Position numbers and translations under genes: made by a program
In this document: piece by piece, positions 1 to 37,124 of the stretch
Position numbering within the stretch: the first letter of the stretch is position 1
Layout: each line of letters begins with the position of its first letter
The notes under the pieces: generated by a model
Told to the model about the DNA's origin: nothing
Databases searched by the model: none
Seen by the model: the letters and a program-made list of their open reading frames with translations, nothing else
IMG/VR virus record: IMGVR_UViG_3300025889_000038
Span: 1 to 37,124 of that record
Source of the DNA: a virus
DNA length: 37,124 nucleotides
Strand: one strand, 5' to 3'

Positions 1-127
1 TGACGGCTTAGAGTGTCCCCAGCTTCAGCTCGACTTAGAGAACCAATACCGCTACGACCAGCAGCAACATCAACCAGCTCACCAAGAGAACGAGTGACCG
101 AGCCAACACCGTCAAGGTCCACTCGAA
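1..127. repeat. Left copy of 127-bp terminal direct repeat (assembly circle overlap)
   Basis: The first 127 bases are identical to the last 127 bases of the window. An exact overlap of 127 is the signature of a circular contig assembled with k=127, not a biological terminal repeat. The primase-helicase reading frame continues across the join without a shift, which supports a circular or circularly permuted molecule of 36,997 bp. Confidence 0.95.
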
Positions 128-2459
128 CCTGGCGCTGTAGAATCACGTTCAAGCAGTTCGTCTCGTCGCTCACCTCCTCAGCTTCCGTTGCCTCGTTGAA
201 GTCTAGCCCAGCTACCATCTCACGCGCTTCGTCTAGTGTGTATTCCTCCATGCGCTCAAGGCTGAATGCGCCTGCCAACAGCGTGCCCACCTGGTCACCC
301 ATACGTTGAGAACCAAGCATCTCCGCAACCGCTTGAGCCAGCACTTTAGCGTTACGACGGATAACAGGGATACCATGGTATGTGCGAGCACGAATAGAAG
401 CGCAGAAGCTAGGCGTCATGGTAGCGATCACGTCCCGCTCGAACTGTGCGAACCGTTCAGCCTCTGCCTTACCCTTGTCAGGTCTAGCCAGTGCGACAAC
501 TGAGAAGCGGCTCTCGTCTGCTGCCTGCTTCAGCCCTACGTTGATAGAGCCCAGAAGGAACATAGAACGAACGTTGAAGCTCATACCGTCACCGTTGGCC
601 GTGCCCTTCACGATCTCAGCTCCAGTGTCGCTAGAGGACTGCCTAGCCAGTTCAAGAACAGACTGCATACGACGGGCTGCGCTTGCGTCCTCGCTCTCTG
701 CTTCGTCGAACATGACCGGGCGAGCGTCACGCTTCAAGGCTTGGCGGATGCCGGCTTCAGTTGTACCGCCTTGGCAGTATATAAGCGACTCCTCTCCCAC
801 CACAGGCTTCATGATGTAAGACTGAAACCACGACTTACCCGCACCACGCTGAGCGGTCAGCCACAAATGAGGCCGCCAGTTCAACGCACCACAAACAGGC
901 GCTAACACAGACCAACCGAGCGCTAACAGGCCGTGTTCTGGTTTGATCCAGTTCACTTGCTTGAAGATATGGCCTAGTTTAGCCGCTTCTGTGTCCGTTG
1001 CTGGAGTGGCGTTGAATGCGTTCTCTAGGGTCGCCTGCTTGGTGTAAATGTACTTGCTTTGATGCTCGTTAATGCGTCGCTGCTTGCCGTCCACGATCAG
1101 AGAACCGCCTAAGTGCAACACTGGTTGCCCGTTGTCGTACCATGCGCCACGGCCACGCTCGTTACGCGGGTCGTAGATGCCCTTGGCCTCACACCAGCGT
1201 AGTAAGGCGTTCATGGCTAGCTCCCAGTCCACGCCCTCTTTCTTAGGGAAGAACGCGCCCCACCATTCAAGGCTTGCGATCTGTAGAAGGGCAGACTTAG
1301 TTAGCGAGCCGTACGCCAACCGCGTTACCTGCTCAGAGCGGCGCGGCAGAACGTATATGCTGTTAGCGTTGTAACCTAGACACAGGAACTCCGTTGCCGG
1401 TTGGTCGTCCTGTACCGGTTCGCTCACTGGCTGCTCTTGTTCTGGCGCTACAGATTGTGCCTGCTGTACCGGCATAGGAGGCGGTGGCGCTTGGCGCTTG
1501 CTCTTGATGCCTAGCAGTTCAGCAGCAGCCTTAACAGCCTTGCTTATGTCACCGTTATGCTCGTAATAGCAGAACAGGTCGAAGCAGTTCACAGGTTGGT
1601 TAGTGTCAGCACTGCACAACGGGTCCGAAGCGTGGTGGATGTAACAGCGGTCGCCGTCTGGCAGTATGTGCACACCAGGTATGCCTGTTCCAGAGTGTGG
1701 GCTTAACCAGCGATTGCCTTTGCGCTTGTAACCGTAGTTGCTAAGCGTACTCAGCAGGTCGTGCGCCTTGATGAACTCGTCGATTACGTTAACGCCCTGA
1801 GTATCGCCGCTTGGCTTTGTCACTGTCTTGTGCGCTACAGGCTCAGGCTTAGGACCCCATGGGCATGCGTCGATGAACTGGGGCTTGAACTTGTCCCACG
1901 CAGTCCAGAACGACAACACCCAGTCTGGCACGGTTGGCCACTCGCCCTGCTTAGGTGGTTGCACTAGCCACTCGTATGGCTTGCCTGTGCTTGGGTGAAT
2001 GGTTGGTGGTAACACGTCTTGGCGCTGTTGGCCTTCACCAGAGACACGCAGCTCCACAACGGTGTACTTCTTCTTTGGGTCGCCTTCAGTTGGCCAGTTC
2101 AGCTTGCAGTACTTAAGATCAACACCGTCAGGTACACGGAACGTGATACGACGACCACGGCCCTTGATGCATGGGTAGTTGTCTAGGTCTTCAGCAGGTA
2201 GGCCGAACTCAGCCAGCAACGCTTGGAATGATTCCTCGCAGTCGATGTCGATGCTGCACATCTTAGACTTGCCCAGCACAAGGCCGACGCCCCAGTCTGG
2301 ATTTGCAGTGTAGAATGCCTCCGCCTGTTCTGGTGTCTTGATTGTATTCTCGCCCCAGTTGTTAGCAGTCGGGAACTTCTGGCCAGGGTTAATCGGAACT
2401 AGTTCCCAGTTGAAGCGATTGGTGTATTGCTTTGCGTACCATTCGACAGTTTTAGACAT
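1..2459 (-). CDS. Primase-polymerase/helicase, N-terminal ~820 residues (gene wraps round the circle)
   Basis: Open from an ATG at 2459 to the window edge with no stop. Joined in frame to 36808-36997, the whole protein is 882 aa. The N-terminal part resembles bifunctional primase-polymerase (prim-pol) domains, with an acidic SIDID motif whose D71 and D73 fit metal ligands. A Pro/Gln-rich linker lies near residues 320-340. The C-terminal half carries a P-loop (RGAGKSW, G539-S543) and a Walker B-like FDEAE at 584-588, as in primase-fused SF3/D5-like or DUF927-type ATPases. It should prime and unwind DNA at the phage origin. The ATG overlaps the stop of the upstream small gene by 8 bp. Three sampled 60-base lines are 62-67% GC, far above the adjacent helicase gene. 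The prim-pol assignment is by motif and layout; the ATPase part is firm. Confidence 0.85.
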   Translation of the reverse strand, partial: MSKTVEWYAKQYTNRFNWELVPINPGQKFPTANNWGENTIKTPEQAEAFYTANPDWGVGLVLGKSKMCSIDIDCEESFQALLAEFGLPAEDLDNYPCIKGRGRRITFRVPDGVDLKYCKLNWPTEGDPKKKYTVVELRVSGEGQQRQDVLPPTIHPSTGKPYEWLVQPPKQGEWPTVPDWVLSFWTAWDKFKPQFIDACPWGPKPEPVAHKTVTKPSGDTQGVNVIDEFIKAHDLLSTLSNYGYKRKGNRWLSPHSGTGIPGVHILPDGDRCYIHHASDPLCSADTNQPVNCFDLFCYYEHNGDISKAVKAAAELLGIKSKRQAPPPPMPVQQAQSVAPEQEQPVSEPVQDDQPATEFLCLGYNANSIYVLPRRSEQVTRLAYGSLTKSALLQIASLEWWGAFFPKKEGVDWELAMNALLRWCEAKGIYDPRNERGRGAWYDNGQPVLHLGGSLIVDGKQRRINEHQSKYIYTKQATLENAFNATPATDTEAAKLGHIFKQVNWIKPEHGLLALGWSVLAPVCGALNWRPHLWLTAQRGAGKSWFQSYIMKPVVGEESLIYCQGGTTEAGIRQALKRDARPVMFDEAESEDASAARRMQSVLELARQSSSDTGAEIVKGTANGDGMSFNVRSMFLLGSINVGLKQAADESRFSVVALARPDKGKAEAERFAQFERDVIATMTPSFCASIRARTYHGIPVIRRNAKVLAQAVAEMLGSQRMGDQVGTLLAGAFSLERMEEYTLDEAREMVAGLDFNEATEAEEVSDETNCLNVILQRQVRVDLDGVGSVTRSLGELVDVAAGRSGIGSLSRAEAGDTLSR

Positions 2460-3030: not shown

Positions 3031-4460
3031 GCCTGTAACTCCATTAACACACGTCGTGCTTGAGTGAATTCATCTGTCGTAGGCTTGCGGCCTTCACGGC
3101 TTGCCATCATTATCGCGCCCCATTGTGCTGGCTTCTTCATACCACGGCGCATTCCTAGCGAGATCAGGTCACGAAGCGTACGCGCTTGGCCTTGCTCTTT
3201 CTTACGTTCCAATCGCACTGCGTCAATATCAACTGCTTGAAGCTCACCTTCGGCTTGCTCAATCTTGCGAACTTTCTTCTCAATATGCGCGCCACACATC
3301 GGGCATGAGTCAGGACCTGGAACGAACACGGCATAACAAGAAGTACACTGCTGGACATTAACATCAGGTTCGTCGTCGTCTTTTTTCTTTCGTTTTCCCT
3401 TCTTCTGCCCTTCTAGTGACCATTCGCGGTTTTCGCATGGCAGGCCGTGCCTCATTGCATTCCCAACATGATCAAGAATCAGCAATCTGTCCTTCCCTGA
3501 ATGTGGTCTAAGACCTCGGCCATTTCCCTGCATAAAAACAATAAGGCTTTGTGTTGGCCTAAGCCACTGAACAACCTCAATAGCCGGAATATCGACACCT
3601 TCAACTAGTAACTGAACGTTAGTAATTACTTTTATTTTTCCGTCTGAAAAGTCCTGCAATACTTTTTCTCTTTGCTCTCCGGTCATAGAGCCTTCTATAC
3701 ATGCCGCAGGTATTCCAGCTTCATTGTAGGAGTCAGCCACGTGCTGCGCATGATTAACGGTAACGCACATAACAACACATCTTTTGCCCTGCGCCAGTTT
3801 TTTATAATGCCCTACAGCGTCACCTGTAATGGTTGGTTTGTCAGTAGCTCGCTCAAGGTCACCCTTGTTGAAATCTCCTGCAGTAGTTTTTACTCCAGTA
3901 GTATCAACTCCAATATTTGGCGCATAAAGAACATAGTCACACAAAAAACCCTCTTGTTGTAACCATCTAATAGACGGTCCTGCCACAATCTTATCGTACA
4001 TATCGCCCAAAGCCTTTCCATCAGTTCTTTCTGGCGTAGCACTAAGGCCAACTAATACGGCATTAGGGTATGCTTCAACTACCTTTTTGTAACTGTCAGC
4101 AGTCGACCTATGGGCCTCGTCTATGATTATTAAATCAGGAGGTTCATATTGATGAAGCCTATTAACCAGAGTTTGCACAGACGCAACCTGTACAGGTAGA
4201 AGGCTTGGCCTCTTTCCGCTTGAAATCATTCCATGCGCAAGCTTTTGTTTCCATAAGGCTGCACTTGTTTGTTTAAGCAGTTCATTTTGATGCACCAGAA
4301 AGAACGCCCTCTTTCCGCGTTCCGCCGCTGTCTTCATCATGTGAACAGTAAGTGCTGTTTTTCCCGCACCAGTAGGCGCTTGAATAAGCACTTTCCCTAC
4401 AGCCTTTAGTTCGTTTCTTGTTTTTATAATTATGTCTAATTGGTAGTCTCTAAGCTGCAT
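3027..4460 (-). CDS. DEAH-box SF2 helicase with C-terminal zinc ribbon
   Basis: 477 aa with SF2 motifs in order: motif I PTGAGKT (residues 29-35), motif II DEAH (114-117), motif III SATP (140-143), and a motif VI-like QGNGRGLRP in the second RecA domain. The layout resembles XPB/SSL2-like phage helicases. A CxxC...CxxC pair near residues 373-393, after a Lys/Asp-rich stretch, looks like a zinc ribbon that could touch DNA. It should unwind or remodel DNA during replication or recombination. The ATG overlaps the stop of the HTH gene (TAATG), and its own stop overlaps the VRR-NUC start, giving a tightly coupled operon driven by the leftward promoter at 4656-4684. Confidence 0.92.
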   Translation of the reverse strand: MQLRDYQLDIIIKTRNELKAVGKVLIQAPTGAGKTALTVHMMKTAAERGKRAFFLVHQNELLKQTSAALWKQKLAHGMISSGKRPSLLPVQVASVQTLVNRLHQYEPPDLIIIDEAHRSTADSYKKVVEAYPNAVLVGLSATPERTDGKALGDMYDKIVAGPSIRWLQQEGFLCDYVLYAPNIGVDTTGVKTTAGDFNKGDLERATDKPTITGDAVGHYKKLAQGKRCVVMCVTVNHAQHVADSYNEAGIPAACIEGSMTGEQREKVLQDFSDGKIKVITNVQLLVEGVDIPAIEVVQWLRPTQSLIVFMQGNGRGLRPHSGKDRLLILDHVGNAMRHGLPCENREWSLEGQKKGKRKKKDDDEPDVNVQQCTSCYAVFVPGPDSCPMCGAHIEKKVRKIEQAEGELQAVDIDAVRLERKKEQGQARTLRDLISLGMRRGMKKPAQWGAIMMASREGRKPTTDEFTQARRVLMELQA

Positions 4461-4627
4461 TAGTTCACCTCAAAATATGCTGTTAGTTTTTGCTGCATTG
4501 ATTCTGATAACTTAGTGACCAGACCTGTTTTTATTGCGCTTATGTAAGCACGGGTAACGCCAACGCGCCGCGCCACTTCTGATAGGTTACGGTCGCTTAA
4601 TTTGTTTTTGATTTCATCTAATGACAT
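4460..4627 (-). CDS. Small HTH DNA-binding protein, candidate switch regulator
   Basis: 55 aa from the ATG at 4627, preceded by AAGGAGA. An upstream in-frame TTG at 4651 is less likely because it lies inside the promoter. The segment LSEVARRVGVTRAYISAIKTG is a compact helix-turn-helix of the Cro/XRE kind. It is the first gene of the leftward operon and sits directly beside the overlapping divergent promoters, the classical place for a Cro-like autoregulator. No larger CI-type repressor is seen nearby. Operator binding is inferred. Confidence 0.82.
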   Translation of the reverse strand: MSLDEIKNKLSDRNLSEVARRVGVTRAYISAIKTGLVTKLSESMQQKLTAYFEVN

Positions 4628-4644
4628 TTTTGTCTCTCCTTTGG

Positions 4645-4673
4645 TTGACAAGTGTATAGTAAGCCCTTATATT
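4645..4673 (+). promoter_or_regulatory. Rightward sigma70-like promoter
   Basis: TTGACA at 4645-4650, a 17-base spacer, then TATATT at 4668-4673. This is a perfect -35 and a 5/6 -10 at optimal spacing. It should start near 4680 and drive the RecE-like exonuclease operon, whose ATG at 4704 follows AAAAAGGAGC. It shares almost every base with the leftward promoter on the other strand. Confidence 0.85.
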
Positions 4674-7107: not shown

Positions 7108-7194
7108 ATGAAAGCTACCCGCATCAACGGAAAATGGACTTACTACATAAACGGCGTGGCTATGTCGCGTGGGGAGTTGGAGCAAATAAAATGA
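7108..7194 (+). CDS. 28-aa ORF, possibly a small gene truncated by HNH insertion
   Basis: The ATG at 7108 gives a 28-residue peptide with a KxxxINGKWTYYINGVAMSRGEL pattern, ending in a TGA that overlaps the HNH start (ATGA at 7191-7194). The pattern of a basic start, NG, a paired aromatic, N/D-G and then a short amphipathic helix is echoed at the start of the 72-aa protein just past the HNH gene. It may be a real micro-gene or the 5' remnant of a gene interrupted by the homing endonuclease. No strong Shine-Dalgarno is visible. Confidence 0.45.
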   Translation: MKATRINGKWTYYINGVAMSRGELEQIK

Positions 7195-7724
7195 CACCAG
7201 AACAAGTAAGCGCGCTAAGCGAAAATGAGCTTAATTTTATAAAAAACTGCATTAGTTACGACCAATATACAGGTATTTTTACTTGGAGAAGCCCTTTATC
7301 AAAAAATGTAAAAGTTGGAGGTATAGCAGGAAGTAAAGAGTCTCAGGGTTACTGGGTCATTAAAATAAAAGGGAAGAGATACAAGGCACACAGGCTTGCT
7401 ATGGCTATTTCTGGCTTTGAAATTGATAATAATCAAGTAGACCATATCAATGGAAAAAGGTCGGACAATCGGCTTTGCAATCTAAGATTGGCATCTCACT
7501 CTAAAAACCAACAAAACCAAGCAATACCAAAAAACAACACTAGCGGTGTTATTGGTGTTTACTGGGCAAAAAATGTACAAAAATGGTACTCCTTGATAAA
7601 GTTAAATGGAAAGACTTTTAATCTTGGGTATTACTCAGATAAAAACGTTGCGATAGAGGTTAGGCAGTTCTCCGAGGAGGTTTGTGGGTTTCATAAAAAC
7701 CATGGAAGATCTGCGAGTGCTTAG
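7191..7724 (+). CDS. HNH homing endonuclease with C-terminal AP2 domain
   Basis: 177 aa from the ATG at 7191; an upstream in-frame ATG at 7134 lies inside the 28-aa ORF and is rejected. The HNH core spans ~64-108: YKAHR with H67, QVDHINGKRSDN with D84-H85 and N87, then NRLCNLR. Residues ~119-165 (GVIGVYWAKNVQKWYSLIKL and onward) form an AP2-like three-strand plus helix DNA-binding module. HNH-AP2 proteins are free-standing homing endonucleases of phages. The gene is more AT-rich than its neighbours and overlaps the next reading frame, both consistent with recent insertion. Confidence 0.9.
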   Translation: MTPEQVSALSENELNFIKNCISYDQYTGIFTWRSPLSKNVKVGGIAGSKESQGYWVIKIKGKRYKAHRLAMAISGFEIDNNQVDHINGKRSDNRLCNLRLASHSKNQQNQAIPKNNTSGVIGVYWAKNVQKWYSLIKLNGKTFNLGYYSDKNVAIEVRQFSEEVCGFHKNHGRSASA

Positions 7725-7746
7725 TATTAATGGGAGTGAACAAAAA

Positions 7747-7965
7747 ATGCTAAAAGTTAGACAAGACAACGGAAGTCCGAAGGCAAAGTTCTATTGGGAT
7801 AATCGCGAGATACCGGCGGAGCGAACAAAAGCCTATATTGATAAATACATGGAAATGCACTTAACTGAGCTAAAGCTATTAAGAAGCGAACTAGAATTAC
7901 ACAAAGCCGCTCTTCTGTTGCGCGAGCATCAAGTTAAGCGGCTACTAAAGGAGCGAACAAAATGA
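7747..7965 (+). CDS. Small protein with C-terminal coiled coil
   Basis: 72 aa from the ATG at 7747, with GGGAG ten bases upstream; in-frame ATGs at 7684 and 7702 would overlap the HNH gene. A short beta-like N-terminus (KVRQDNGSPKAKFYWDN) precedes a long Leu/Lys/Glu heptad helix, so it probably oligomerises. Its start resembles the 28-aa peptide before the HNH gene, hinting at paralogy. Its stop overlaps the next ATG (ATGA at 7962-7965). Function unknown. Confidence 0.65.
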   Translation: MLKVRQDNGSPKAKFYWDNREIPAERTKAYIDKYMEMHLTELKLLRSELELHKAALLLREHQVKRLLKERTK

Positions 7966-8051
7966 ACCTTACCTTGTGGGCATGCGGATTATACACAGCA
8001 GCTTTTGCGCTTGGTTTTACTCTGCTTTGGATAGATGCGAACATAAAATGA
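7962..8051 (+). CDS. 29-aa single-TM micro-protein
   Basis: ATG at 7962 preceded by AAAGGAGCG at good spacing. The peptide is nearly one hydrophobic segment (LTLWACGLYTAAFALGFTLL) ending in IDANIK. It is ATGA-coupled to genes on both sides (7962-7965 and 8048-8051), which is strong evidence that it is translated. It is a membrane micro-protein of unknown role. Confidence 0.7.
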   Translation: MNLTLWACGLYTAAFALGFTLLWIDANIK

Positions 8052-8446
8052 AATTAACGACACGAGAAAAAATCAAAGCTATGCCATCATTAAAGAAAGG
8101 TGATGGCTATCACTGGGTCTCAGCTCGCAACAAGTGGAAGGTGAGTTGTCACATAGAAGGTCATCTATGGTACGGTGGGCTGTATGAGAAAGAGGAGGAC
8201 GCAATGGAACAGGTAAAACTAGCAAGAAGTGGTCACGCGGATTTATGTCTGCGCGGTTTTGAGAACCCAGTCAGTAAGTTGAACGAGAAGCTGGTGTTAA
8301 GCATCCGAGCAGAACACGAAGAAAAAAAGCGCAAGATACAAGCGATCAAAGATGAATCAAGCGTGCCAGCGATGGCCAAGCGATACGGCGTGCACCCTGC
8401 AACTATTCGCGCAGTCTTGTCTCGTAAAACGTGGACGCATGTATGA
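8048..8446 (+). CDS. AP2-like plus HTH DNA-binding protein
   Basis: 132 aa from the ATG at 8048. Residues ~20-55 (GYHWVSARNKWKVSCHIEGH, then WYGGLYEKEEDAMEQV) have the AP2 three-strand pattern with W, K-W-K and GG-x-[YF] positions. The C-terminus (SSVPAMAKRYGVHPATIRAV) is a helix-turn-helix. It carries no nuclease motif, so it is more likely a regulator than a homing enzyme. It is coupled by ATGA overlaps to the TM micro-protein before it and to its AP2 paralogue after it. Confidence 0.8.
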   Translation: MKLTTREKIKAMPSLKKGDGYHWVSARNKWKVSCHIEGHLWYGGLYEKEEDAMEQVKLARSGHADLCLRGFENPVSKLNEKLVLSIRAEHEEKKRKIQAIKDESSVPAMAKRYGVHPATIRAVLSRKTWTHV

Positions 8447-8691
8447 AATTCACAAGCAACGACTTAGCAAAGCTAAAGCCGCAAAGCGACAAACCTAAGC
8501 GAGCAGTGCAGGGTTATTACTGGCATAACCAAACACAGAAGTGGAAAGTTAATTTCCGTATAGATGGTGTTAGCTGGTACGGTGGAGTATTCGAGAACGA
8601 GCAGGATGCTATTGATTGCGTACTGAACAAAAAGGCGCAATGTAAGCTGGTTACGCGGTCAAACCGCCCATCGTATGCAACGGCTTGCTAA
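8443..8691 (+). CDS. AP2-like DNA-binding protein (paralogue of preceding gene)
   Basis: 82 aa from the ATG at 8443, which overlaps the upstream stop (ATGA). Its core, GYYWHNQTQKWKVNFRIDG followed by SWYGGVFENEQDAID, aligns residue by residue with the AP2-like part of the preceding protein, showing a tandem duplication. It lacks the HTH tail. The gene meets the leftward lysis operon tail to tail: its TAA (8689-8691) overlaps the o-spanin stop by 3 bp, with no obvious terminator between. It probably binds phage or host DNA. Confidence 0.78.
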   Translation: MKFTSNDLAKLKPQSDKPKRAVQGYYWHNQTQKWKVNFRIDGVSWYGGVFENEQDAIDCVLNKKAQCKLVTRSNRPSYATAC

Positions 8692-10652: not shown

Positions 10653-11507
10653 TTATGCTCCGAACGTGTAAGATATTGTGAAGCCAGATGTGGTTGAGGA
10701 TGCTGCATCATAAGAGAATGAAAGTATCCCCGAAATCGAAACATTAACTTCAAACGTATCTCCGATGCTTGTTATAGAATAAATGTTAGAAACATTATTT
10801 ACTGGTCTCGCCCATACTGGAATATATCCAGAAAGAGAACCTCTACTCGTTGATGCAGTATGATTGAAACTCCCTGAGATAACTATCATCTCTCCTACTC
10901 TTACAACCTTACAGCTTCCGCTCGTTAGTGTATTACTAGGGCCAAGCGTTTCTGAGTTGTAATAACCAACGTCGGTTATACCAGCTATAGTGTCATTCAA
11001 CACCTTCCCCTGCGCCGCTGTTAGTGCAGTACTAGTAGAAGTTGATGTAAGCGTATTGTTTAGCTGAACAGCGCCTTTTTGCGCTGTTGTAGCATCTTGG
11101 ATAGTCAGTGTTAAATCACCGTCAAGCGCACCTCCACCAGCTAATGGTGAGGTAGTGCCAACCGTTCGCGTTTGCTGAACAAAGTGCCCATCGTTCTGAG
11201 TATTGCTTCTTGCCTCTGCTCCATCAGTGCCAGCCTTCAACACTTCAAGCGTTCCACGCGCACCCTCCGCGCTTGTTGAACCAGTGCCGCCACCAGCTAA
11301 GCTAAGAACAAACACCTCGTCCGTTCCGCTCTGTCTGCGTCGTAGCAGTTTCTGGCTGTTATCGGCTTTCATGGTGCCGTTTGGTAAATCAGTGTAAACC
11401 GTGGACGTCTGCCCCATGGTTAGGGCGTAGGCGTCTTTATCTGCCAAGTCCTGCAACACCTCGACGTGACTTGGATTGCTATTTGTTGGGTCGTTCCAGC
11501 TTGGCAT
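10653..11507 (-). CDS. Tail fibre protein
   Basis: 284 aa. N-terminal ~60 residues look like an attachment domain (SHVEVLQDLADKDAYALTMG). The middle is low-complexity, Gly/Thr/Ser-rich, with GGTGSTSAEGARGTL and LTLTIQDATTAQKGAVQL motifs common in phage fibre shafts. The C-terminus is an all-beta tip. It starts immediately after the hub stop. It should form a trimeric shaft carrying a host-recognition tip. Confidence 0.85.
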   Translation of the reverse strand: MPSWNDPTNSNPSHVEVLQDLADKDAYALTMGQTSTVYTDLPNGTMKADNSQKLLRRRQSGTDEVFVLSLAGGGTGSTSAEGARGTLEVLKAGTDGAEARSNTQNDGHFVQQTRTVGTTSPLAGGGALDGDLTLTIQDATTAQKGAVQLNNTLTSTSTSTALTAAQGKVLNDTIAGITDVGYYNSETLGPSNTLTSGSCKVVRVGEMIVISGSFNHTASTSRGSLSGYIPVWARPVNNVSNIYSITSIGDTFEVNVSISGILSFSYDAASSTTSGFTISYTFGA

Positions 11508-26377: not shown

Positions 26378-27619
26378 TTAGTTAATAAACGATATGGAAA
26401 TTGGCTTGAATTTGCGCGCTTTCATAAGCGGCTGCAATGCGTAGCGAATCGCGTCTATGTAGTGGTTCCATGCGTCCACTGGTACTGGCAAAACGTCTTG
26501 CGTGAGTCGGTCGACCTTGTAACTATACAAGCTAAACTCTTTAGCCACTTCTTTACAGCGAGTATGGATAACCACTTCTTTAAAGCTCTTTATAAACTCA
26601 ATGCCATCTTCAACGCTGCCCTTGCCTTTTTCTACGCCTACTATGCGAGGCATACCGAAGCGCTTTAGATAGCTAATCGACTCAGGACGAGCACTGTCCG
26701 CACGAATAACATATTGACCATAGTTAGGTATTAACCGCTCAATATATTCGCTAGTGTCATCCAGCTCTAGTCCAACCTTTCCAGCTTCGTACTCAATGAA
26801 CAACGTATCTCTGTGCACCCAGCACTTTACCGCTGCTGTTGGGTCTTGAGCAAAGCCAAAGTCCAAACCGTTATATGGACCATCCCAATCAGGCTGTGGA
26901 GTAAAATCAGCGACGCGATATTTGTTAGCGAATATCTGTGAATCTGAATGCTCATGGTATGCGCCTTCCCATATCCAGCGGTAATCCGACTCGTTCATGA
27001 TGCGCTTATCTTCTAACCGCGCACGCTCAAGCACCTTCGGGAACCATGGATTGTCCGTGTAGTTCATTTCAACGATCTTGGCATCGCTAGCAGCTTTAAG
27101 CCTGAATCTAATATCTGTCGGGCTTTCCTTCTTCTCTGGGTTCCATGTCACCCATAACTCAGCTTCTTCAATGCCTCGGATGGTTGGTATTAGCTTAGAC
27201 CATGCAACGTCGCTAACCGATTCGGCCTCGTCCACCCAAGCTAACAGGATGCGAGCCTTGGATTTAATGCTGTCTAGGTTATGGCGAAGACCGGCAAACA
27301 CAAACGACACTCGCCTGCACTTGGTGCGTATGTAGTTCTCGCCCATGTCGTACTGTTCTAACAGCCATGGCGTTTCTTTAATAGCCTGTTTGATTTCTTC
27401 CATTGATGAATCGGAAAGCGAGTTCATGTATTCACGGCCACATAGAATGACGCCGCTTATCCCTTCGCTTGCAAGCATGTAGCCACGAACCGCAGCCATT
27501 AGCGCAAAGCTGCGAGTCTTAGCGCTACCCCTGCCACCGTGAGCGCCCCGAACAGGCGCTTTACCACTGAAAACAGGTATTAGCTTTGGCGGTAGCTCAA
27601 TCTTTGCTGTCGTCATCAT
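26378..27619 (-). CDS. terL: Terminase large subunit
   Basis: 413 aa. The ATPase domain has a Walker A GGRGSAKT (28-35) and a Walker B LLAWVDEAE with D130-E131. The C-terminal nuclease domain begins at YNGLDFGFAQDPTA, whose D is a likely metal ligand, and contains further acidic positions (IRADSARPESI). The length and motifs fit the Terminase_3/PBSX-type group. It powers DNA packaging and cuts the concatemer. Two tandem ATGs (27619, 27616) are possible; the gene overlaps terS by 23 bp. Confidence 0.95.
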   Translation of the reverse strand: MMTTAKIELPPKLIPVFSGKAPVRGAHGGRGSAKTRSFALMAAVRGYMLASEGISGVILCGREYMNSLSDSSMEEIKQAIKETPWLLEQYDMGENYIRTKCRRVSFVFAGLRHNLDSIKSKARILLAWVDEAESVSDVAWSKLIPTIRGIEEAELWVTWNPEKKESPTDIRFRLKAASDAKIVEMNYTDNPWFPKVLERARLEDKRIMNESDYRWIWEGAYHEHSDSQIFANKYRVADFTPQPDWDGPYNGLDFGFAQDPTAAVKCWVHRDTLFIEYEAGKVGLELDDTSEYIERLIPNYGQYVIRADSARPESISYLKRFGMPRIVGVEKGKGSVEDGIEFIKSFKEVVIHTRCKEVAKEFSLYSYKVDRLTQDVLPVPVDAWNHYIDAIRYALQPLMKARKFKPISISFIN

Positions 27620-28076
27620 CTACCGTTGGCGCGATTAATTCGATTCTAGTTGGCGCTTTTAGCGAGCCATCAGAGCTGGTGTGGTCGATCTTATCCCCAA
27701 GCTGCAAATTACGAATAACAATCGGCGCGTTATATTTGCCGATCATAGCGCCCTCCAGTTGGGAGGCTTCGCACTGGGTTTTAATCTTAGCCATTACATC
27801 AGCGAAAATATGCTCAGGTTTTGACCAGTTTGTGAGAGTTACACTGCTGACACCAATCCATGCGGCTAAGCCTTGTAGTGTTAATGGCAGACTCTTCCGT
27901 GTTGTTTGCTTGGGATTCGAAGCGGTTGGAGTGTGGATATACTCAGGGTTTTCGTGCTTGTACTTAGCATAAGCATTGAACTCTTTGATTAAGTCCTCGG
28001 GCATATCCAGTTTGTATGATTTTGGCGGTTCTTTTTCGCGTAGCTTGTAAAGCTGATTGCCTTTCTCGAATGGCAT
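27597..28076 (-). CDS. terS: Terminase small subunit
   Basis: 159 aa, directly upstream of and overlapping the large subunit. The centre contains an HTH (LTLQGLAAWIGVSSVTLTNW, residues ~65-85), followed by a helical oligomerisation region and an acidic C-terminus (DDDDSKD) that may contact the motor. It should recognise the pac or cos site and load TerL. Confidence 0.85.
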   Translation of the reverse strand: MPFEKGNQLYKLREKEPPKSYKLDMPEDLIKEFNAYAKYKHENPEYIHTPTASNPKQTTRKSLPLTLQGLAAWIGVSSVTLTNWSKPEHIFADVMAKIKTQCEASQLEGAMIGKYNAPIVIRNLQLGDKIDHTSSDGSLKAPTRIELIAPTVDDDDSKD

Positions 28077-34798: not shown

Positions 34799-34981
34799 TT
34801 ATTGGCCGCACTTCAACAGATCTTTAATCTGCTCCAACTTCTCAACCTGCCACTGCTCAAGCGCCCTGGCATAGCGCCCCTGCTGGTGGTTCTTCATCAC
34901 GTCGATGCTAACGCCAATCGCCTTGGCTTGTTGTGTTGTTGAGAAGCCTAGTTTTACTAGGTCGTTTACTAGGTTTGTCAT
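34799..34981 (-). CDS. Small HTH protein
   Basis: 60 aa, ATG at 34981 with GGGGTGA upstream. Residues ~10-35 (LGFSTTQQAKAIGVSIDVMK) form an HTH; a C-terminal helix (QWQVEKLEQIKDLLKC) follows. It sits between the PP-loop gene's terminator and a candidate promoter, in the position of a local regulator of the accessory genes. Confidence 0.72.
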   Translation of the reverse strand: MTNLVNDLVKLGFSTTQQAKAIGVSIDVMKNHQQGRYARALEQWQVEKLEQIKDLLKCGQ

Positions 34982-35048: not shown

Positions 35049-35879
35049 TTACCCGAACAAGTCGCACGACTCTGAACAGCCGTTTGCATTGTCGCTGATT
35101 GACTCATAGTATTTGTCGTTAAATCTATCAAACACAGATTTAGCCGCTTCTAGCATTTGCTGCGTGTTTCGGTTCTTTCTAAAGAAATTACCTTTATTGT
35201 TTTCTGCGTTAAACCCACCATCCTTAGCTATAATCTCCATATTATTGAAATGGTCAAACAAAGCTGGATTGTCATTTGCCAAAGTTAGCAGCTTTCTATC
35301 TGATTTTTTCCAGCATGTAACGCAGTTCCCGTAATGCTCTGGCACATCAAGATCAAAAGCCTGACGACTCCACCACCCCAAAACATCCCCCTTTCTGGTT
35401 GGGAATTTTGTTATTAGCGGGTAAATTATCCGCATTTCATCCATATTAGCCGCCATTCTATCAATCTCGTCACACCTGATGCCTACAGCCCTATAAGCAT
35501 CTTGGCAAGTATCGGCAAGCCATGCGTTGAAAGGTTGTAGTTTCAGCTCCCGATTGCAGTGTGGGTAGCTCTGGTTTGGTATGCCGTATTTTTTCACAAC
35601 TTCATAGAATGGTTCGCACTGTCTGCTAGCTGTTTCATAATTAACAATTTTGTATTTTGTACCTACTCGCTCACCGTGTTTCACATCAGCCTCAAGCCAC
35701 ACTAGGTTAAGTCCCCATTCACGATCGCAGCGGTCAACAAAATCCAAAGTCCTTTCATCTTCTGCGCCAGTGTTCATGAATACAAAATATTGGTTGCTTG
35801 CCAAGGGCTTTAACTGCAACTGTCTAGCCATGTAAGCTGACGTTCTCCCTCCTGAAAAGCTGATCACTAGGTTTTCCAT
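35049..35879 (-). CDS. PP-loop ATP pyrophosphatase (PAPS reductase-like)
   Basis: 276 aa. The PP-loop is SFSGGRTSAYM (7-17) and a second motif GIRCDE lies at 133-138. Cys residues C88, C108 (PHCNRELK), C186 and C189 (GNCVTCWKK) and a GCSESC tail could bind an iron-sulfur cluster. It should activate a substrate with ATP as PAPS reductases, DndC and tRNA-thiolation enzymes do. Phage versions are widespread and their substrate is unclear: sulfur metabolism, nucleic-acid thiolation and defence escape are all possible. The SD is GGAGAGG and the gene ends at a terminator. Confidence 0.88.
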   Translation of the reverse strand: MENLVISFSGGRTSAYMARQLQLKPLASNQYFVFMNTGAEDERTLDFVDRCDREWGLNLVWLEADVKHGERVGTKYKIVNYETASRQCEPFYEVVKKYGIPNQSYPHCNRELKLQPFNAWLADTCQDAYRAVGIRCDEIDRMAANMDEMRIIYPLITKFPTRKGDVLGWWSRQAFDLDVPEHYGNCVTCWKKSDRKLLTLANDNPALFDHFNNMEIIAKDGGFNAENNKGNFFRKNRNTQQMLEAAKSVFDRFNDKYYESISDNANGCSESCDLFG

Positions 35880-36284: not shown

Positions 36285-36315
36285 TCTTTTCTCCTTAGTT
36301 GTTAAACGCTTAGCT

Positions 36316-36344
36316 AGTGTATTGCATAGAACAGCGCGGTGCAA
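36316..36344 (-). promoter_or_regulatory. Candidate promoter for the accessory block
   Basis: Minus-strand TTGCAC (plus 36339-36344), a 17-base spacer and TACACT (plus 36316-36321), 32 bases before the 41-aa gene. Both boxes are moderate. It abuts the iteron cluster, so origin-binding proteins may affect it. Confidence 0.4.
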
Positions 36345-36368
36345 GCCTAATCGACTAGTAGAAACCGC

Positions 36369-36807
36369 TGTTACGCTAGTGTTACGCTAGCCAAAAAAAA
36401 CGTAACAAAACAAACCCAGTGTTTATGCGGCCTGTAACCCGATCTGTTACGCTTGTTACGATTTGAAAAATTAGCGTAACAGGCTGTAACCCGCATGGTT
36501 ACTGGTTTTGGCCCTAATAATAAATAAAATGTTACAAAAATAGATATATATAGAGCCCCCTATAGTAAAAAGTCTATCAATACATATAAATACCTATACA
36601 TGTTCTCTATAGTGTCTCTCTTAATATTTAGCGTAACATTGTACAAAACCACCCTAAAAACACCATGAGCCCAGTAATGGCGCGGCCTGCAGCCGTGTTA
36701 CAGTTCTGTACACTTTGTTACGCTGCGTTCGTAGCGTAACAGTGTATTGCCAAAAGGCATAAAAAAACCGCCTCTAGGACGGTTTTAGTTATAAGCTAAT
36801 TGTTACA
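36369..36807. other. Putative iteron-type replication origin
   Basis: No gene in 36345-36807. Seven exact copies of the 9-mer TGTTACGCT occur: forward at 36369, 36380, 36445 and 36716, reverse (AGCGTAACA) at 36473, 36630 and 36733. Partial copies (TGTTACG, CGTAACA, TGTTACA) lie at 36401, 36454, 36530, 36696 and 36801. The 36369 and 36380 copies are tandem 11-mers TGTTACGCTAG; 36716-36741 is a perfect inverted pair with an 8-base spacer. An AT-rich stretch (~36520-36630) lies between clusters. Iterons, an AT-rich unwinding region and an adjacent primase-helicase gene fit a replication origin. Confidence 0.72.
36761..36785 (-). terminator. Terminator of the replication operon
   Basis: Minus-strand AAACCG-(9)-CGGTTT (plus 36765-36770 and 36780-36785), then four more T at 36761-36764. 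It lies 23 bases past the primase stop, so leftward transcription should end before it crosses most of the iteron cluster. Confidence 0.8.
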
Positions 36808-37124
36808 CTAAATCGGCATTGATACATACCTACTGAGCGAACCTGCGAACCGAATTGGCCTTTGTCCTGCCTCAGAACCGTCTACCCGTAACAGCATCCG
36901 GCGATGTCCAGAAGACCAAGGCGTATCTCGAAGTGTCTTAGCAAGCTCTGCGTGAGTGTTAGCAACACATAGGCGGTCGTCGATAACCTGCAAGCCGTGA
37001 CGGCTTAGAGTGTCCCCAGCTTCAGCTCGACTTAGAGAACCAATACCGCTACGACCAGCAGCAACATCAACCAGCTCACCAAGAGAACGAGTGACCGAGC
37101 CAACACCGTCAAGGTCCACTCGAA
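36808..37124 (-). CDS. Primase-helicase, C-terminal part (continues from base 1)
   Basis: This is the in-frame continuation of the leftward frame from 2459-1. The last 127 bases duplicate the contig start. It supplies the final residues of the 882-aa primase-helicase and ends in a TAG at 36808-36810. The segment is rich in Arg and Gly and contains no separate recognisable domain. A TGTTAC repeat abuts the stop codon, and a leftward terminator hairpin follows at 36761-36785. An apparent ATG within this piece is an internal methionine, not a separate gene. Confidence 0.88.
   Translation of the reverse strand, partial: RVDLDGVGSVTRSLGELVDVAAGRSGIGSLSRAEAGDTLSRHGLQVIDDRLCVANTHAELAKTLRDTPWSSGHRRMLLRVDGSEAGQRPIRFAGSLSRYVSMPI
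36998..37124. repeat. Right copy of 127-bp terminal direct repeat
   Basis: Exact copy of bases 1-127. Position p in the first copy corresponds to p+36997 here. The leftward codon phase is preserved across the join, so the two ends should be merged when the genome is annotated as a circle. Confidence 0.95.

Follow-up and report, generated by a model that had tools for sequence, protein, structure and literature searches.

The stretch of DNA analysed here (hereinafter, the window) comprises all 37,124 nucleotides of IMG/VR virus record IMGVR_UViG_3300025889_000038 and raises the question of where this virus starts its replication, and which of its proteins recognises the site. The window corresponded to a circular genome of 36,997 bp with a terminal repeat of 127 bp, and terminase, portal, scaffold, head, and tail genes were present, as in a complete tailed phage. 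A non-coding gap of 523 bp (36285..36807, assigned to no strand) extended from the stop codon of a primase-helicase gene to the start of the next gene (ATG at 36284-36282 on the minus strand, with AGGAG upstream). An earlier note on this DNA had proposed an iteron-type replication origin adjoining a primase-helicase gene, and the gap indeed begins at the stop codon of that gene. The gene was encoded on the minus strand across the circle junction; its 3' end (36808..36997) contained the last 62 codons and the stop, including the codon for residue 869 discussed below, and the remainder was located at 1..2459, giving a product of 882 aa. From the sequence comparisons described below, the gap is very probably the replication origin of the phage, with the product of the gene ending beside it as the initiator.

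Seven exact copies of the 9-mer TGTTACGCT, as counted in the earlier note, were identified in the gap at 36369..36377 (+), 36380..36388 (+), 36445..36453 (+), 36473..36481 (-), 36630..36638 (-), 36716 (+), and 36733 (-). The last two formed an inverted pair on both strands (TGTTACGCT-8 nt-AGCGTAACA; 36716..36741), with all 9+9 bases matching around an 8-base spacer, as had been claimed. The partial copies that had also been suspected were recovered with a weight matrix, which gave four good sites and one weak site in the cluster: TGTTACGTT (36399..36407, -) and TGTTACGAT (36454..36462, +), each with one mismatch, the iteron-like TGTTACAGT (36696..36704, +), TGTTACACT (36801..36809, +), which overlapped the stop codon of the primase-helicase gene, and a weak iteron-like TGTAACATT (36528..36536, -). 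In the genome-wide count that the note had suggested, the 9-mer was not common elsewhere, with zero exact copies outside the cluster on the circle. Allowing up to one mismatch, 19 matches were found, 10 in the cluster and 9 scattered; since whole-window shuffles gave 10.2, the one-mismatch copies outside the cluster were at chance level. The region had a motif score of 182, a value matched or exceeded in zero of 312 shuffles and in approximately 4 of the 983 control windows taken from related loci.

The AT-rich core was likewise confirmed within the cluster: the 120-bp stretch with the highest AT content in the genome (76%; 36515..36634, no strand) contained the weak site TGTAACATT and is presumed to be the unwinding element. 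A hairpin followed by a T-run (AAAACCGTCCTAGAGGCGGTTTTTTT; 36763..36787, -) was read from the sequence as the probable terminator of the primase-helicase gene; it was missed by a consensus scan, and a GC-rich hairpin with a T-run was found at the equivalent place in three related loci (L003, L004, and L006). GTWAC was also central in the AT cores of the same three loci. No DnaA box was detected in the gap at up to one mismatch, and an Rfam search returned no match. The detrended cumulative GC skew had its minimum at 917 and its maximum at 10727, with an amplitude (p 0.08) that is confounded by gene orientation.

In addition, a second motif (class II, CCCAGTAACCATGSGGCCTGTAGC) was found in the gap at 36415..36438 (+, five mismatches), 36483-36506 (-), and 36670-36693 (+). 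These three were the only copies at up to five mismatches in the genome, and none was found at up to six mismatches in 10 genome shuffles. One or two copies were present in L018, L019, and L045, and the motif was absent from the other loci checked. It was rejected as a general feature, being confined to the closest relatives, with 29 IMG/VR matches estimated at chance level.

For comparison, approximately 156 usable loci encoding the helicase half of the protein (phrog_35358) were collected from two wider scans and from phage records. The nearest relatives, L003 (86%), L004 (70%), and L006 (72%), had a terminator, iterons, an AT core, and further iterons after the stop codon, in the same order as in the window and with different repeat letters. 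Within 700 bp past the stop codon, one 8-mer occurred at least four times in 67 of the 156 loci and at least six times in 31, while the 8-mer count in other windows of the same loci mostly peaked at 3-4. A motif-finder score of 140 was reached in 76 of the 156 loci, in 16 of the 983 control windows, and in none of the 312 shuffles. An array thus lies directly after the primase-helicase gene in roughly half of these relatives. Together with the iterons, the AT core, and the position after an initiator-like primase-helicase gene, this shared anatomy supports the reading of the region as a replication origin.

Some phages lacking an array after the gene had one elsewhere nearby (e.g., L013, L015, L100, and L133). 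On inspection, most of the high-scoring control windows were in-gene or tandem repeats, and those of L100, L013, L015, L126, L133, and L134 resemble displaced iteron arrays. A strong AAAGAAACCGA array was observed in L132 (12300-13050), about 4.7 kb past the primase-helicase stop codon, and is possibly a displaced origin with another core. In L051 (about 293-575), a 15-bp unit (GTAGGTTTGCGT...) was repeated in tandem approximately 20 times, far from the primase gene, and the same array was seen in L020 and L021.

Repeats were aligned across phages by profile, with L103, L144, and L037 as ambiguous cases and the alignment of L018 and L045 remaining ambiguous. In their common orientation the repeats read T-G-T-n-A-C-G-n-T, with phage-specific letters and a T-G-T-n-A-C-like core. 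A flipped central base noticed in relatives (GTTACGC vs GTAACGC) was dropped as unneeded after all repeats had been aligned. Iteron spacing peaked at 8-12 bp, and neighbouring iterons were in the same versus opposite orientation at 318:60. The AT-richest gap was bordered by convergent iterons in 40 of 56 arrays, an orientation kept only partly in the window's own array.

The N-terminus of the primase-helicase was a Prim-Pol domain (PF09250; residues 9-180, E 9e-22), and its helicase half (residues 350-882) matched the phrog_35358 (DNA primase) profile at E 2.9e-125. The helicase half had no Pfam family of its own; no DUF927, D5_N, or Primase_Cterm match was found in the window protein and 45 relatives, and weak DUF5906 matches occurred in 4. 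Comparison of N-termini (L018, L011, L012, L017, L137, and L150) revealed that the helicase half is common to phages with TOPRIM or zinc-ribbon N-termini. Of these loci, L017 belongs to phi1422, a cultured Bdellovibrio phage. In the window's clade, this helicase half and type of origin were preceded by Prim-Pol, and in others by TOPRIM or zinc-ribbon primases; it therefore seems that the primase module was exchanged without replacement of the helicase and the origin. The helicase half of L018 (93% identical) was modelled with AlphaFold2 at a mean pLDDT of 90. In Foldseek comparisons with the PDB, the helicase fold matched NrS-1, Cch, E5/D5, and SaPI5 at E 2e-7 to 6e-6, with whole-chain TM of about 0.3-0.4; the best folds were the NrS-1 C-terminal region, SCCmec Cch (second), poxvirus E5/D5, ASFV PrimPol, and the SaPI5 primase-helicase. 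A sequence search of the PDB gave P-loop noise only. The succession of elements beyond residue 766 would agree with a winged helix and, after it, short strands, including 869-871 and 874-876.

The earlier note had left the iteron binder open between the prim-pol protein and one of the small HTH proteins. Two approaches, a sliding-window correlation of protein and repeat distances and a comparison of close pairs, were rejected because kinship confounded them too strongly for any domain to stand out, and residue-level tests were used instead. Residue 869 (window numbering; R in the window), which precedes a conserved F near the C-terminus, was the best of approximately 530 columns for base 2 of the repeat (0.98; next column, 0.70). 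Among 68 non-redundant loci, TGT-type repeats nearly always went with R or K, TCT with Y (8/8), and CCT with W (3/3). On a helicase-core tree built without the C-terminal domain, base 2 had changed at least seven times, and residue 869 followed in about six of six independent pairs (p 0.031).

Because residue 869 had been chosen as the best of many columns, newly fetched loci provided a cleaner test; 230 such loci yielded 126 non-redundant ones, 40 of them with an array. Where the repeat alignment was clear, R occurred with G in 26 of 26 loci and Y or W with C in 7 of 8. The sole exception, L307, reads QYRF, with R directly before the conserved F, and the rule holds in this locus too when that R is taken as the residue. 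Held-out loci with less than 80% identity to the first set agreed in 13 of 13 cases for R and 3 of 4 for Y/H (Fisher p 0.006), the latter consisting of three Y cases and one H case only. In the pooled 92 loci, residue 869 reached a z of 31.7 (next column, 10.6), although these co-variation statistics, the tree test aside, count loci as more independent than they really are. An alignment-free count gave C at base 2 with Y 14, W 4, and H 1 times, and G with R 58, K 3, and other residues 7 times. Residue 874, five positions past 869, ranked first for bases 1 and 4 in the pooled loci. The last hairpin held the top column for bases 1, 2, and 4 only, and bases 7-9 had no favourite C-terminal column and mostly tracked kinship.

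Since residue 869 co-varies with base 2, the C-terminal domain of the primase-helicase is most likely the reader of the iterons; of the two candidates in the note, the prim-pol protein was thus favoured and the small HTH protein was not. An origin at which a small HTH protein (e.g., that of 4460-4651 or 34799-34981) binds the iterons and recruits the primase-helicase was considered improbable. The product of 4460-4651 does carry an HTH_3 domain (E 2e-5), separate proteins often serve as iteron binders, and lambda O recruits the host helicase. However, base 2 tracks a primase-helicase residue across deep lineages and in the newly fetched loci, and the array usually lies directly after the primase-helicase gene. 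Iteron plasmids with a separate Rep initiator have a Rep_3/RepA-type gene beside the iterons; among the replication-region proteins scanned, which covered part of the ORFs, none was found.

An operator array, through which the primase-helicase or another protein would control the leftward neighbour genes with no replication start, was also considered improbable; we gave it marginally lower weight than a separate binder. The array sits between the terminator and the next leftward gene and therefore holds or borders the promoter of that gene. However, the dozen or so sites that surround an AT-rich core behind a primase-helicase gene match known origins, the relatives with arrays have differing following genes, and an autoregulatory site would be expected at the opposite, upstream end of the gene. 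Transcription control could be an additional role of the array. A partition or packaging site, suggested by the ability of inverted-repeat clusters to act as centromere-like sites, is extremely unlikely, given that no sign of a ParA/ParB gene was noticed in the scanned part of the ORFs, that the terminase small-subunit gene (27597-28076) is 9 kb from the array, and that the array co-varies with the primase-helicase.

For an origin recognised by the primase-helicase itself, we infer the following course, from binding through hexamer loading and melting to use as an origin. The C-terminal winged-helix-like domain of the 882-aa protein would bind the TGTTACGCT iterons flanking the AT-rich core, probably largely via the last beta-hairpin (residues about 866-876). 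Bound copies would assemble into helicase hexamers at the core, which would melt it and then load on single strands, and the Prim-Pol domain would synthesize primers. Loading of two helicase rings at the core would be in keeping with convergent iteron blocks, and has been discussed for the SaPI and Cch2 initiators.

The closest parallels were found in the pri-rep-ori modules of SaPI/PICI elements. SaPI Rep uses its C-terminal domain to bind the iterons that immediately follow its own gene (PMC7581432), and in the SaPI origin an AT-rich region lies between two iteron sets (PMC6092414). The array in the window is likewise immediately 3' of an initiator-like gene, as a putative origin, with two iteron sets around an AT-rich region; the fold of the helicase half matches the SaPI5 primase-helicase (7ola/7pds), and strong residue co-variation suggests that the C-terminal domain may read the iterons. 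Unlike the window, which is a complete tailed phage, SaPI/PICI elements are helper-dependent satellites without full structural genes, and their Rep belongs to the DUF927 or D5_N/Primase_Cterm families, to which the window helicase had no match. The window origin would work like a SaPI/PICI or P4-alpha origin, yet it is not a SaPI/PICI member.

The P4 origin is an iteron origin, and P4 requires a second cis site, crr, whereas the window has one array and no exact 9-mer outside the cluster. The P4 alpha protein combines primase and helicase parts in one initiator (PMC7145576), a combination also present in the window protein as the putative initiator. In SCCmec, whose Cch was the second best fold match to the helicase half, the C-terminal domain of Cch2 binds repeats downstream of its own gene; unlike the window, SCCmec encodes its primase separately and has only three short iterons, and the element is not a phage. 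The pRN1 protein ORF904 is a Prim-Pol/helicase fusion whose gene is immediately followed by a non-coding stretch containing the origin (PMC4234260), an arrangement resembling the fusion and putative downstream origin of the window, although the pRN1 origin has a stem-loop and no recognisable iterons. In lambda-type origins the iterons lie within the initiator gene, whereas the window array follows the stop codon, with one copy overlapping it.

On balance, we favour the view that a large unnamed group of autonomous tailed phages, with loci from cyanobacteria to Burkholderiales, starts replication at self-recognised downstream origins following a C-terminal-hairpin code, in which residue 869 would set base 2 (R/K for G, Y/W for C) and residue 874 would influence bases 1 and 4, and that the origins have been repeatedly re-spelled and the primase half swapped between TOPRIM and Prim-Pol. 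The downstream iteron arrangement is seen here in a complete phage, and also in many related loci, in combination with a different helicase family; either it is older and more widespread than thought, or it arose more than once. From protein sequence alone, the co-variation offers a testable prediction of the origin position, and partly of the repeat spelling, for a large number of uncultured phages. The repeated re-spelling of origins is also relevant to conflict among genetic elements; the phage nuclease Odn mimics the iteron specificity of an initiator and cuts the origin of a satellite (PMC8263062). No description of these phage origins was found in openly licensed papers, which is weak evidence of novelty.

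Other genes were also observed in the window. A PAPS-reductase-like gene (PF01507, phrog_424; 35049-35879) was located to the left of the putative origin. At 7134-8691, an HNH endonuclease gene in the plus-strand block (7134-7724; phrog_99, E 1e-58) was followed by two small ORFs (7976-8446 and 8431-8691), both with a GYxWxxxxxKWKVxxxIxG stretch.
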